A DNA stretch of 64,000 nucleotides, taken from NCBI GenBank assembly GCA_938083195.1, contig CALKCK010000010.1, positions 1-64,000 of the forward strand. The letters are read 5' to 3'. The notes beneath the pieces are model-generated. The model ran no database searches, was not told where the DNA came from, and was given only the letters and a program-made list of their open reading frames with translations. How positions within the stretch are numbered: position 1 is the stretch's first letter; every line of letters starts with the position of its first letter. The position numbers were made by a program, and so were the translations under genes. The DNA is from an uncultured Pirellulaceae bacterium (lineage in GTDB: Bacteria; Planctomycetota; Planctomycetia; Pirellulales; Pirellulaceae). Below are positions 3,318 to 64,000 of the stretch, piece after piece.

Positions 3318-4068
3318 AGCAATTACCGTAGGTTTTTTTGAATTTGAAATTTTGAATTAGAAATAGTGATTCAGGCCCTAACCACCTACCAACAAACCCG
3401 TTCACATTATGAAAGATTGAAGCAGAGCGATTAACCGTTTTAGGGAAAAAGTCGGGCGGTCCGCCATTGTTACCCAATTCACGGACCTTGCCCACCACGT
3501 TTTAGAGAGAAGCGGCAGAGAGAAGCCCCTTTTGTAACAAATCGTTTAGTTTTGTAAGCATTGGAAACCAATTCGATTACGTAACACCACTGGCAGCATC
3601 TGTTTAGAAGTAAATTTGACCCTCGCCGCCTCAAAGCTAAGTAGGGATAACAATTCTCTCGAACCGCTCAAATTCTTTCGAACAATCCTAGAATCGAGGA
3701 CCGATAAAAGGTAGTTTGGTGATGTCTTGAGACGACGGCGCCGGCACTGGCGTTAAACACTGAGGCCTGAGAACGGCCGATGCAGTGATTGTGCCAAAGA
3801 GTACGCATAGCGGATTGTTAATAAAACATCATCGACTGTGACTTCGCTTAATCGCGATTCAATCAGTTCGTTGACTCTTTGTCATATTGCATAGCTCTAC
3901 CCGGGCGTCGGTACAAATACGTGCTCCACCGAAATTCCAAATCGCAGACAGGCATGTTGGCGTCAGTTTTGACGCCAGGCACCGCGGTTATAATTATCGG
4001 AGAACCTGCCCAACGTTCTCATTTCCGTATTTTAGAATTCGAAATAAAGCAATTTGGGGAATCACACC
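3318..4068. other. Divergent intergenic region, no gene supported
   Basis: The region separates the leftward isomerase gene from rightward coaE and should hold both promoters. Open frames here (such as 3232-3498 on the minus strand and 3879-4124 on the plus strand) lack ribosome sites and recognisable sequence. A perfect 8-bp inverted repeat TGGCGTCA-GTTT-TGACGCCA lies at 3958-3977, just upstream of the coaE -10 box. No tRNA or known structured RNA was recognised. Confidence 0.5.
3967..3994 (+). promoter_or_regulatory. Candidate sigma-70-type promoter for coaE
   Basis: A perfect TATAAT lies at 3989-3994, with TTTTGA at 3967-3972 and a 16-bp spacer. It is about 75 bp upstream of the coaE start. 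The -35 element overlaps the right half of the inverted repeat at 3958-3977, which could be an operator. The call rests on consensus only. Confidence 0.4.
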
Positions 4069-4710
4069 ATGCTCGTCGTCGGATTAGCAGGTGGAATCGC
4101 CAGTGGCAAAAGCTTGGTCGCTGATTGTTTCGTGCACTTCGGTGCGGCTTTGATTGATGCGGATCAAATTGGTCATGAGATTTTGAAGCAACAAGAGATC
4201 AAAAATGCCATCACGCTGGAATTTGGAAATTCCATTATTAATAAACAAAATGAGATTAATCGAAACCAACTCGCTCACATCGTCTTTAACCCTGACTACC
4301 CCGACGCCCTGACAACTCTGGAGAAAATAACCCATCCTGTGATCTCTGAGCGTATCCACTCCATCCTAGAACAACACCGTCCAACTGCTCCGGCAGTTTT
4401 ACTTGACGCTCCCGTCATGTTCAAAGCTGGCTGGGATCAAATGTGCGACAAGGTTGTCTTTGTAAATGCCAAATTAGTAACCAGAAAATCCCGAGCCAAA
4501 CTTCGCGGGTGGAATTCAGATGAACTCGCCAAACGCGAAGCTTTCCAAACTCCAGTGGAAGAAAAACGTACCCTCGCCACCGACGTCATCGACAATGACG
4601 GATCAAAAACTGCAACCTACCTCCAAGCCCGCGATTTATGGCGAGCTTGGAACCTACCACTAACCAAAAAACACCACTCTCCCAACTCTCTTTTTATTAA
4701 TACCCCCTAA
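4069..4710 (+). CDS. coaE: Dephospho-CoA kinase
   Basis: The enzyme phosphorylates the 3'-hydroxyl of dephospho-CoA with ATP, the last step of coenzyme A synthesis, in the cytoplasm. The N-terminus has the P-loop GLAGGIASGKS, then the DADQIGHEIL segment typical of CoaE, and later TLEKITHPVI and the DAPVMFKAGW lid region. At 213 aa it matches the usual 200-210. ATG at 4069 is preferred because GGGGA lies eight bases upstream; an in-frame TTG at 4054 would add five residues. The next gene is rho, 61 bp downstream, so the two may be co-transcribed. Confidence 0.93.
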   Translation: MLVVGLAGGIASGKSLVADCFVHFGAALIDADQIGHEILKQQEIKNAITLEFGNSIINKQNEINRNQLAHIVFNPDYPDALTTLEKITHPVISERIHSILEQHRPTAPAVLLDAPVMFKAGWDQMCDKVVFVNAKLVTRKSRAKLRGWNSDELAKREAFQTPVEEKRTLATDVIDNDGSKTATYLQARDLWRAWNLPLTKKHHSPNSLFINTP

Positions 4711-4771
4711 GCGGCAGCGTCAGAAATCACACTCTTCTTTATCTGCGCTGCACTCCTGAAAGCAAAACACA

Positions 4772-6268
4772 ATGGCTGATACTGGCAAGTCCAACTCGCG
4801 CGACCCCCAAGGACGCGGCTCTAGGAACCGCCCTCCCAGTTCGCAATCCAATAAGCAATACCCTCTAGACCCGGAGGTCGCTGCCAAACTCAAGGAAATC
4901 GAATCTTCCGGCGAGCCAATGTCGATTGCAGAGGCCATTTCGCGGGAGCGAAAGCCAGCAACCGAAAATCCTGACAATGCGGTATTCGAAGGCGAAATCA
5001 TCAACGTCACCGAATTGCAAAAGATGTCTCTAGACGAGCTAACACAGCAAGCCGTCACGGAAGGAATCAGCGACGCAAAAGAACTTGGAAAACGCGACCT
5101 GATCACCCGCATGCTTAAAGAACGAGTCAAAGCACGGGGAATCATGTGTGGCCAAGGGACGCTGCAAATCCTCCCGGATGGCTTTGGATTCTTACGATCT
5201 CCCGAGTATCACTACCTCAACTGCCCCGATGACATCTATGTTTCTCCCAGTCAGATTCGAAAATTCAATCTCAGAAATGGATCCGTAGTCAAAGGTCAAA
5301 TTCGTCCACCCAAAGAGAACGAACGATACTTTGCCCTCCTAAGAGTTGAATCCGTCAATGGACTAAGTCCAGCCGATAGCGCCCGACGCTCCAACTTTGA
5401 CGACTTGACCCCTCTCCATCCCGACACCCGGATGGTGATGGAAAACAACCCAAAAGAGATGTCGACTCGAGTTGTCGACATGCTTGCCCCGATTGGATTC
5501 GGACAACGGGGTTTAATCGTCAGCCCACCTCGCGCGGGAAAAACAATTTTGATGCAACGCATGGCACAAGCGACGCTCCAGAATTACCCAAGCGCCTATG
5601 TCATCATGTTGCTCATCGACGAACGCCCCGAAGAAGTCACTGACATGGAACGAGAAGTCCGAGGCGAGCGATGTGAGGTGATCAGCTCTACCTTCGACGA
5701 ACCTGCTTCTCGCCATATCCAAGTCACCGAGATGGTACTGGAGAAAGCAAAACGCCTCGTCGAAAGCGGCGTGGACGTCGTTATTTTCCTCGACTCCATC
5801 ACTCGCCTGGGGCGAGCCTGGAATTCCGAATGCCCCCAATCTGGAAAAACGCTTTCTGGCGGACTTGACGCCAATGCGATGCAAAAACCAAAAGCATTTT
5901 TTGGATCAGCTCGAAAAATTGAAGAAGGTGGATCGCTGACAATTCTCGCGACTGCACTGATCGACACTGGCAGCAAAATGGACGAGGTCATTTTCGAAGA
6001 ATTTAAAGGGACAGGTAATCTAGAGATTGTCCTCGATCGATCTTTGGTCGATAAACGTATTTGGCCAGCCATCGATATTAATGCCAGCGGAACGCGACGG
6101 GAAGAAAAACTATTTGACGAAGATGAATACGACCGCATCTGCAAGGTCCGCCGAATCCTAAGTGAAATGAACCCACCGGATGCAATGGACTTACTCACGA
6201 GCCGACTCAAAAAAACTCAAACCAATGCAGAATTTCTAATGAGTATCAAAGCGAGTGGATCTTTTTAG
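4772..6268 (+). CDS. rho: Transcription termination factor Rho
   Basis: Rho is the hexameric RNA-dependent ATPase that releases untranslated transcripts. Of 498 aa, the first ~75 are a Pro/Ser/Arg-rich disordered extension. These are followed by the Rho N-terminal helical domain ([11 protein letters not shown]), the cold-shock-like RNA-binding fold ([16 protein letters not shown]), and the RecA-like motor with Walker [13 protein letters not shown] near residue 255 and Walker [16 protein letters not shown]. The usual RLARAYN following the Walker B box is RLGRAWN here. The C-terminus has the expected [19 protein letters not shown]. It ends with TAG. It is longer than the 419-aa E. coli protein because of the N-terminal extension. 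Confidence 0.97.
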
Positions 6269-24364: not shown

Positions 24365-24617
24365 GACGAAATGCTCACCGGTGATGCCTTACCTCTCCTC
24401 AGTTCATTGCTCGTATAAACGCTCATCGCAAACAACTATCCTCCATCTGCTACCACCGATCAACAAAACAATAAACCCTTCGATTCGTAATTCAAATTCC
24501 AGCACGCACATTTTAATTTGTCTGATATACTCTGGAATGTAAGAACGTCGTTTAGAAGTGTTTGAATTACCAAAGCTGGAACAAATGGACAAGAAAATAA
24601 TTAGTTCGGAGCTCGTC

Positions 24618-25904
24618 ATGGTTCGTGGTTTACTTTGCTTAGCCTGCACACTTTTGATCGTAGGCTGTACCGATCAGACTAAAGTCACGAACGTAGCAAA
24701 CTCACCGACCGCACCGGCAGTAGAAAACGAAACTCTCGCCGCGGTCCAACCGGAGGAACCATCTCCAGGCATCCTCCCGCTGGATGACGACGAACGAGAG
24801 GCACAAGCCCAGGAGAAATACGACGCCCTTCAGGCAGAATTCCAAAAATCTGTAAAAGACCTGCGGGACGAAATTGCCACTTTAGAATCCAAAGACGATC
24901 AAATTAGAATTTTGGCCACAAAAGATCCATCAACGGAGTATGGAAAACGTTTCCTCGAACTTGCCAAATTCTATCCAGACACGAAGGCTTCATTCAATGC
25001 GACCCTGTTCGTCGTCGGGCAAACAAAAGGCGATTTAAAATGCGAGGCGATGGAGTATTTACTGAATCGTTATGCAGCTCGAGTCAAACTTTCAAAAATT
25101 GCAGAGTCTCTAAAGCAGGAAGTCCCGAGTCCGGACGTTGAACGATGGTTCGATCTCATGATCGAAAAAGCAAAACCGGGACCAGTGCAAGCGAGCGTCA
25201 TGCTGAATTACTCGCAATACCTCGGTCAACTTCCCATGTTTCGAAAGACCATTGCCATCAACCCTCAAGTTGCTGAACGCCTGCCTTCTACCCAGCTCGA
25301 ATACATAAATGCCGAACGTACGGATGCTCAAAACCAAAAAACTGCTTCTATTTTGAATTCAGTTATCCAGCAATACGGTGATTTAAAGTTTCAAGGTCGA
25401 GAAACGTTTGGTGAAAAAGCCGCCAGCGAGTTGTTTGAATTGACTCAACTTAAGGTTGGCATGACGGTACCCGAAATTGAAGGCGAAGACCTCGATGGAA
25501 TTCCCTTCAAACTAAGTGATTATCGCGGCAAAGTAGTGATGCTCGATTTCTGGGGTCACTGGTGCCCACCGTGTCGCGCGATGTATGGACACGAACAGGA
25601 ATTGACACAAGACCTTTCCGACCAACCCTTCGTGCTGCTGGGGGTCAATAGCGACGCTGAAAAACAAACGGCAATCGATGCTGTCCGCAGCGAAAATCTT
25701 AGCTGGCGCCATTTTTGGAACGGTCCCCGAGGAACACGCGGGCCTATCTCGAAGCAGTGGAACGTCGAAGGCTGGCCCACCGTCTACCTTATCGATCAAC
25801 ACGGTGTGATTCGCTACAAAGAAGTCCTCGGAGACGAGATCGATCGAGGCATTGAAACGCTCATGGCTGAACTGCATCAGGAAATCGGTGCGAGCACTCG
25901 GTAG
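24618..25904 (+). CDS. TlpA-like thioredoxin lipoprotein
   Basis: 428 aa from ATG 24618, chosen because GGAG lies six bases upstream and the product then begins with a clean lipoprotein signal (LLCLACTLLIVGC, lipid Cys at about 16); the frame is open to 24558. A ~270-residue helical N-terminal region rich in Glu/Lys precedes a TlpA/ResA-type thioredoxin domain. That domain has LSDYRGKVVMLDFWGHWCPPCRA (here shown as its two halves' consensus), the CPPC pair near residue 314 and the cis-proline region GWPTVYLID. It probably reduces periplasmic disulfides or haem-binding cysteines. Here the active site uses two ordinary Cys, unlike the Sec thioredoxin at 63289. Confidence 0.88.
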   Translation: MVRGLLCLACTLLIVGCTDQTKVTNVANSPTAPAVENETLAAVQPEEPSPGILPLDDDEREAQAQEKYDALQAEFQKSVKDLRDEIATLESKDDQIRILATKDPSTEYGKRFLELAKFYPDTKASFNATLFVVGQTKGDLKCEAMEYLLNRYAARVKLSKIAESLKQEVPSPDVERWFDLMIEKAKPGPVQASVMLNYSQYLGQLPMFRKTIAINPQVAERLPSTQLEYINAERTDAQNQKTASILNSVIQQYGDLKFQGRETFGEKAASELFELTQLKVGMTVPEIEGEDLDGIPFKLSDYRGKVVMLDFWGHWCPPCRAMYGHEQELTQDLSDQPFVLLGVNSDAEKQTAIDAVRSENLSWRHFWNGPRGTRGPISKQWNVEGWPTVYLIDQHGVIRYKEVLGDEIDRGIETLMAELHQEIGASTR

Positions 25905-63228: not shown

Positions 63229-63257
63229 AAAAAAACCTTTGCCAAAAAGCAAAGGTT
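63229..63257 (-). terminator. Terminator of the Sec thioredoxin gene
   Basis: AACCTTTGC (63234-63242) pairs with GCAAAGGTT (63249-63257) around a CAAAAA loop. On the minus strand it is followed by seven T (plus-strand A at 63229-63235). It lies about 30 bp after the TAA at 63289, showing that the transcription unit covers the frame beyond the UGA. Confidence 0.9.
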
Positions 63258-63288
63258 CCTGTTTAACAGCAAATTGCATTGCAAATTG

Positions 63289-63609
63289 TTAACTACTGTG
63301 ATTATCAAGGACGGCCTGCAAATCGCTCTTGTCCCGGTATCCGGCGATTCGCTCTACGACTTCGCCACCTTTAAATACTAAAATCGTCGGCACAGCGGAA
63401 ATCCCAAACTGAACCGCTAATTCCATATGATCGCCTACGTTTACCTTGCCGACAACCGATTTTCCATCGTTCTCTACTGCAAGTTCATCAATGACTGGAC
63501 CCAGTCGTTTGCAGGGAGGTCAGCCTTGTGACCAAAAATCAACCAAAACGGGTTTTTCGGAGCCGATCACATCTGCTTCGAATGAGTCCTTCGTAAATTC
63601 TGCCGCCAT
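63289..63609 (-). CDS. trxA: Probable selenoprotein: thioredoxin with Sec active site
   Basis: Read through one TGA (63520-63522), the gene encodes 106 aa, exactly a thioredoxin length, ending at TAA. ATG 63609 is preceded by GGAGAG at five bases. The frame before UGA is EKPVLVDFWSQG and after it PPCKRLGPVIDELA, so the active site is G-U-P-P-C (Sec30, Cys33) in place of W-C-G-P-C. The rest is intact: GKVNVGDHMELAVQFGISAV, the cis-Pro AVPTILVFKGG, and VVERIAGYRDKSDL. Without read-through only 29 residues would be made. A SECIS-like hairpin follows the UGA. The gene lies 230 bp downstream of fusA on the same strand. A Cys-to-stop mutation is the alternative, but the fold-wide conservation argues against decay. 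Confidence 0.88.
63489..63511 (-). promoter_or_regulatory. Candidate bacterial SECIS element in the thioredoxin gene
   Basis: Counting from the base after UGA on the minus strand, GACTG (bases 14-18) pairs with CAGTC (23-27) around the tetraloop GGUC (19-22). CAA (9-11) pairs with TTG (29-31) across an AC/A internal loop. The core is at 63493-63506. The GGUC loop recalls the E. coli fdhF SECIS loop. Pairing was done by eye. Confidence 0.7.
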
Positions 63610-63839
63610 ATTCTCTCCAATTTAAAAATCTTCGCCAAGCTCGGGATTGACCCGAATAACGAATACACAATTCCTGATCATCTCGACCGTTTTTCCGATT
63701 CTAGCCGGTAGCCCATTCAGGTCAACAAGCCATCATCACGAGTTCGACTCGATCGCTGCCACCAAGCTTTCCTACGCTAATGATCGACATTAACCGCGGA
63801 ATAAACTTACACTCCCCCAAGAATTTTCATGAAAAAACT

Positions 63840-64000
63840 TTACAGGGCAAATGATTGAGCAACGTCCGCTGGGGCCGGAGCGTATTCCAGCGGTTCCATT
63901 GAACTCCCTGCCCTACCCTGCGAAAGTGACCGCATCGCACTTGAATAACCGAATAGCTCAGCCAACGGTGCATTGGCAATGATTGTTGTCGTTTCCAGAT
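63840..64000 (-). CDS. fusA: Elongation factor G, C-terminal end (partial)
   Basis: Only the last ~53 codons are in the window, leading to TAA 63840-63842. The sequence TTTIIANAPLAELFGYSSAM followed by RSLSQGRAGSSMEPLEYAP matches EF-G domain V (usual forms: PLSEMFGYATDLRS and LTQGRA). EF-G drives ribosome translocation. The start lies beyond the right edge, and the gene runs leftward toward the Sec thioredoxin gene. Confidence 0.9.
   Translation of the reverse strand, partial: LETTTIIANAPLAELFGYSSAMRSLSQGRAGSSMEPLEYAPAPADVAQSFAL

Follow-up and report, generated by a model that had tools for sequence, protein, structure and literature searches.

A UGA-encoded TrxA-type thioredoxin, very probably a selenoprotein, in a planctomycete lineage that also holds cysteine forms

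In this study, we describe a gene for a small thioredoxin in which an in-frame UGA codon takes the place of the first active-site cysteine, found near the end of a 64,000-nucleotide stretch of DNA (hereafter the window; contig CALKCK010000010.1, assembly GCA_938083195.1) from an uncultured Pirellulaceae bacterium. The gene very probably encodes a working selenoprotein, in line with a sequence-only reading according to which the cell makes a selenocysteine (Sec) thioredoxin; the Sec machinery of the genome, the conservation of the UGA, the selection acting on the codons behind it and a hairpin in the same place all argue for this. Whether, beyond the single gene, a planctomycete clade depends on selenium for its general and only TrxA-type thioredoxin, with two reversions to Cys in genomes that have kept the Sec machinery, is a proposal to which we give about even chances. 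If it is true, basic redox metabolism is tied to selenium supply in these bacteria, and their naturally occurring Sec and Cys forms would make up a series for asking what Sec is for.

The thioredoxin gene

The gene lies on the minus strand at 63289..63609, with its ATG at 63607-63609 and its TAA at 63289-63291, and has 106 sense codons. It contains one in-frame TGA, codon 30 (63520..63522, minus strand), which stands at the nucleophile position and is read as Sec in our translation; the translated frame reads MAAEFTKDSFEADVIGSEKPVLVDFWSQG-U-PPCKRLGPVIDEL..., and the active site, FWSQG-U-PPC, carries two chalcogen residues two apart (U30-P-P-C33), with Gly where Trp is usual in thioredoxins and Pro where Gly is usual. 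The sequence-only reading, which left the strand unstated, was right about the coordinates, the codon count and the single TGA; translation also bears out the intact Cys33 that it reported and, together with the relatives, the changes from Trp to Gly before the site and from GP to PP within it. Lists of open reading frames (ORFs) made with translation table 11 cut the gene at the UGA, and no same-strand ORF of at least 100 aa extends over it.

With C put for U, the protein scores 84.9 bits with the thioredoxin profile PF00085 (cut-off 23.5) and 96.3 bits with the thioredoxin equivalog NCBIfam TIGR01068, whose cut-off of 96.8 it misses by 0.5 bit, and for this reason it is filed under PF00085 and not under TIGR01068. 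Its AlphaFold model shows a thioredoxin fold (pLDDT 93.9, pTM 0.87), the best PDB matches of the model are solved thioredoxins, and a PDB sequence search agrees.

The neighbouring fusA (EF-G) gene, already recognized in the sequence-only reading, is on the same strand, 230 bases upstream; its 3' end occupies 63840..64000 (minus strand) and the gene continues past the window (contig 63840-65921; ORF 3841-5922 of locus L022). Beyond it lie rpsG-, rpsL-, rpoC- and rpoB-like ORFs, named from their translations, and EF-G adjoins the thioredoxin gene in L016, L024-L031, L115-L120 and L131. The RpoC-like ORF (L022:7259-12730, minus strand, 1823 aa) has a long C-terminal tail with repeated DDLT(R/K)IEGIGP units. 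As for the expression signals noted earlier, the ribosome site before the ATG can be seen by eye as an RBS-like GGAGAG (63613..63618, minus strand), and the terminator after the TAA stands in part: a terminator-like hairpin followed by a T run is visible by eye at about 63229..63260 (minus strand; fold z -2.5), but a consensus terminator scan reports none near 63229-63260. A promoter-like site at 63725-63698 (minus strand) was rejected as no more than chance, two sites being present in the region against 0.9 expected. Rfam, at gathering thresholds, reported only a tRNA in the window.

Conservation of the UGA codon

Relatives were collected by a contig scan, the best 80 of 325 being kept, and among these the aligned site is TGA in all nine nearest relatives (L024-L032, 68-98% identity); the UGA is placed at the Cys position of homologues and is kept between species. 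The tenth relative, L033 (64% identity), has TGC and the motif GCPPC. An exchange of U and C among planctomycete thioredoxins, proposed in the sequence-only reading as a check, is thus found in L033, and in other Cys rows too. By the sequence-only reading, the Gly and Pro on either side of Sec may tune its reactivity; sites of the GxPPC type occur as GCPPC in the Cys relatives L033/L121 and also in L122, and UGA relatives show the motifs SUGPC and TUGPC as well. With its 68 contigs the assembly is a draft, and a sequencing or assembly error that turned TGC or TGT into TGA had been foreseen as an objection; it is excluded for practical purposes by nine loci from other records that share the TGA and differ at synonymous sites, and we regard its probability as negligible.

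Behind the TGA, the window and L024 differ by 14 synonymous codon changes and by none that alters an amino acid, and the window and L026 by 17 synonymous and 3 amino-acid changes. Judged from these codon comparisons, the sequence after the TGA is under purifying selection. Because near relatives differ after the TGA almost entirely by synonymous codon changes, the 29-residue product that the sequence-only reading had weighed against its own view is unlikely. A genuine stop codon in a thioredoxin gene undergoing decay, leaving that peptide as the only product, would be in keeping with the use of TGA as a stop in this genome: of 37 large ORFs counted in the window, with a single ORF at each locus and overlaps removed by hand, 12 end in TGA, so that UGA also acts as a stop codon here. 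Such decay is contradicted by the purifying selection and the nine conserved TGA codons, and further by the near lack of TAA or TAG equivalents, the codon conservation at the hairpin and the lack of a second TrxA-type match in the seven nearest-clade genomes, given below, and we consider it very improbable.

The history of the Sec position was followed on a tree of 41 proteins, with rows hand-picked from the loci available and the Sec position masked. Thirteen Sec rows group together with three Cys rows, with support of 99/91, and the fewest Sec/Cys changes on the tree are three. These fit a single acquisition of Sec and two returns to Cys, one in L122 (genome G134) and the other in the identical L033/L121 (G168). 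Reversion to Cys would be the simplest history on this tree, and other histories are possible, given the long branches of L122 and L128, the many internal nodes that the tree leaves open and its midpoint root. The Cys thioredoxin of L131 (G152) belongs to the same genus and also stands beside EF-G; the counterpart thioredoxin of a sister species can carry Cys, and the hairpin is then absent.

The hairpin behind the UGA

The UGA is followed by a SECIS-type hairpin, GACUG-GGUC-CAGUC (63493..63506, minus strand; loop 63498-63501), with the GGUC loop at +19 to +22 nt after the UGA. No other hairpin with a GGUC loop and at least five Watson-Crick pairs occurs on either strand of the 64-kb window; with all 256 tetraloops considered, 16 hairpins of at least five pairs follow a TGA within a long open frame of the window. 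Limits for bacterial SECIS elements, as given in a 2026 review (PMC13188914), are a loop of 3-9 nt with G at its first two positions, a stem of 4-16 bp, a spacing of 16-37 nt and an MFE of -7.5 or lower. The hairpin lies within them in its loop (4 nt, G first), stem (5 bp) and spacing (18 nt), and its MFE does so when 53 nt (-12.4) or 50 nt (-9.9) are folded but not with 41 nt (-6.2).

Codons 33-39 contain the hairpin, and in ten UGA sequences the codon itself is kept at 6 of 7 amino-acid-invariant positions there, versus 3 of 50 elsewhere (p 1.5e-5). The region folds no better than its shuffles (z +0.86 and -0.86), and covariation in the hairpin is weak, 96 of 500 shuffles reaching it in a set of 11 sequences too invariant to decide. 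The case for a SECIS element is therefore built on codon conservation and on the presence of the hairpin at UGA sites and its absence at Cys sites, not on folding energy. In L130 the hairpin is AACUG-GGUC-CAGUU, with the outer pair changed on both sides, a single change of a kind that weighs little, and in L032 the predicted fold differs from the others and the GGUC hairpin is present. The GGU codon for the Gly of LGP forms part of the loop; at this residue L033/L121 have Ser, and L122 and L128 have Ala. The last of these (L128:1501-1812, plus strand, G119) is a same-genus UGA thioredoxin with an apparent TTG start and no GGUC hairpin.

Selenocysteine machinery and the sole TrxA-type protein

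The sequence-only reading had pointed to the Sec machinery as something to be sought in the genome, and SelA, SelB, SelD and tRNA-Sec are all found in the assembly (4.8 Mb, 68 contigs, 91.9% complete): selB matches with 366 bits, selA with 591 and selD with 259, all over curated cut-offs, and tRNA-Sec, with anticodon TCA, with 67 bits, over its cut-off. Each of 15 selected genomes has tRNA-Sec over the cut-off, among them G100 and G144, two UGA genomes in which selA stays below its own cut-off, and the Cys-form genomes G134 and G168 have selA over cut-off together with tRNA-Sec. In L020:1387-3609 (minus strand), SelD makes up the C-terminal portion of a 740-aa protein with a Pyr_redox_2 match in its N-terminal portion.

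The residue inserted at the UGA cannot be told from sequence alone, and the codon might in principle be read as another amino acid, through Trp, Cys or near-cognate readthrough. That the site is the Cys position in relatives such as L033, that the Sec machinery is present, that the hairpin is found after UGA but not after Cys codons, and that UGA stops other genes all speak against it, making it highly unlikely in our estimation. A pseudogene, a sequencing error and an altered genetic code were rejected on the conserved TGA, the selection after it and the UGA stops elsewhere. In the Sec thioredoxin that we favor, SelB with Sec-tRNA-Sec would bind the GGUC hairpin downstream of the UGA, and Sec would be inserted at residue 30; the selenol would attack the substrate disulfide, Cys33 would resolve the mixed selenide-sulfide, and thioredoxin reductase would restore the reduced thioredoxin. 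Matches to this reductase (TrxR, TIGR01292) exceed the cut-off in 14 of 15 genomes; in the window's own assembly, 91.9% complete, none does.

A search with an alignment of this thioredoxin matches 192 of 199 family genomes at an E of 1e-15 or better. Each of the seven nearest-clade genomes (G000, G100, G144, G160, G176, G188 and G194) has one TrxA-type match, the UGA gene, and G119 and G134 have two each. PF00085 has 11 matches in the window's genome; the ten others lie in open frames of 170-582 aa, several of which have, by eye, signal- or lipoprotein-like starts. The absence of a second TrxA is likely, not proven, because the drafts are 88-92% complete. Since no second TrxA-type match occurs in the nearest clade, the UGA thioredoxin probably serves as the general cytosolic thioredoxin.

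UGA-coded thioredoxin folds in the family

The DNA pattern for D-F-W-x-x-x-TGA-x-P-C, outside which L032 (DFY) falls, has 88 matches (column sum) in 35 of 199 family genomes; over the 199 it has one match with TAA or TAG in place of TGA, and reversed-pattern controls give one and three. Of the 35 genomes that have the UGA pattern, 30 have selA over cut-off, versus 73 of the 164 without it (Fisher p 9e-6, not a strict probability because the genomes are related). Many of the 88 matches are longer redoxin/TlpA-like proteins, not TrxA. Part of them, together with other loci, make up 42 distinct UGA sites, 32 TlpA-like and 10 TrxA-like, and among the thioredoxin-fold sites examined the GGUC hairpin is found at 40 of these 42 versus none of 90 Cys sites (21 of them from loci of this family), the two UGA sites lacking it being L112 and the G119 gene (L128). 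At the TlpA-like UGA sites the hairpin is exactly ACGAGC-GGUC-GCUCGU in 30 of 32; L112 has a GGAC loop, and one site has a changed stem base. A shared loop with a differing stem in both gene types is what would be expected if one SelB reads both. The shared GGUC hairpin may also serve as a handle for finding UGA-coded genes that are cut short in table-11 ORF lists.

Two of the longer proteins belong to the window's genome. L113:508-1920 (plus strand, contig C45) and L112:1078-2313 (minus strand, contig C9) both carry DFWGDWUPPC and redoxin/AhpC-TSA domains, with a GGUC hairpin in the former and the GGAC loop in the latter. A Cys relative of these proteins is encoded in the window itself at 24558-25904 (plus strand; DFWGHWCPPCRAMYGHE, 448 aa), without a GGUC hairpin. 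In the same genome, L114:1243-1884 (plus strand, contig C21) has a UGA in a Thioredoxin_7-type protein (HFTADWUGWCHKLE) and no GGUC hairpin of the kind found at other UGA sites, and it may possibly use another kind of SECIS.

Discussion

Sec and Cys forms of one small, easily assayed protein within one genus touch on the question of why cells keep Sec where Cys works. Sec in thioredoxin is reportedly the topic of a paper by Kim et al. 2015. The 2026 review calls Sec-to-Cys substitutions rare, with FdhA and SelD as the main documented cases (PMC13188914). Among the literature matches listed, with their titles and the starts of their abstracts, none describes a planctomycete Sec-thioredoxin. One paper has the production of thioredoxin reductase as its subject (PMC3834832), and in another, two planctomycetes from Porphyra are reported to have the Sec machinery as well as selenoproteins, possibly with a thioredoxin among the latter (PMC4807772).

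Compared with ordinary TrxA, that of E. coli and others, the protein is alike in fold and length and differs in having Sec for the first Cys, with GUPPC replacing a WCGPC-type site. The UGA redoxin/TlpA-like proteins of the family (DFWGDWU) share with it the thioredoxin fold, the U-x-P-C motif and the GGUC apical loop, but they are longer (about 411 and 470 aa for the two in the window's genome) and their hairpin has another stem, ACGAGC/GCUCGU, with the loop at +32. In the SECIS of E. coli fdhF, the GGUC likewise lies at +19 to +22 after the UGA, with a stem that differs in sequence; the fdhF stretch used here has a match in 5368 of 5426 E. coli genomes, and fdhF is the gene named for the three matches listed.

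The protein also resembles the Sec-containing bacterial thioredoxins (PF00085, UxxC) already known (PMC1088965, PMC1794560, PMC13188914), which are likewise small stand-alone thioredoxins with Sec first and Cys last in the redox motif. Since such proteins are known, the window protein would be ordinary in mechanism. Compared by description, it differs from them in its planctomycete lineage, in the Gly before and the Pro after Sec (GUPPC), and in the genomes around it, with no second TrxA-type match in seven of the seven nearest. Of interest, from these sequence comparisons, is a lineage that seems to have Sec in its sole TrxA-type protein and to exchange it with Cys within a genus.
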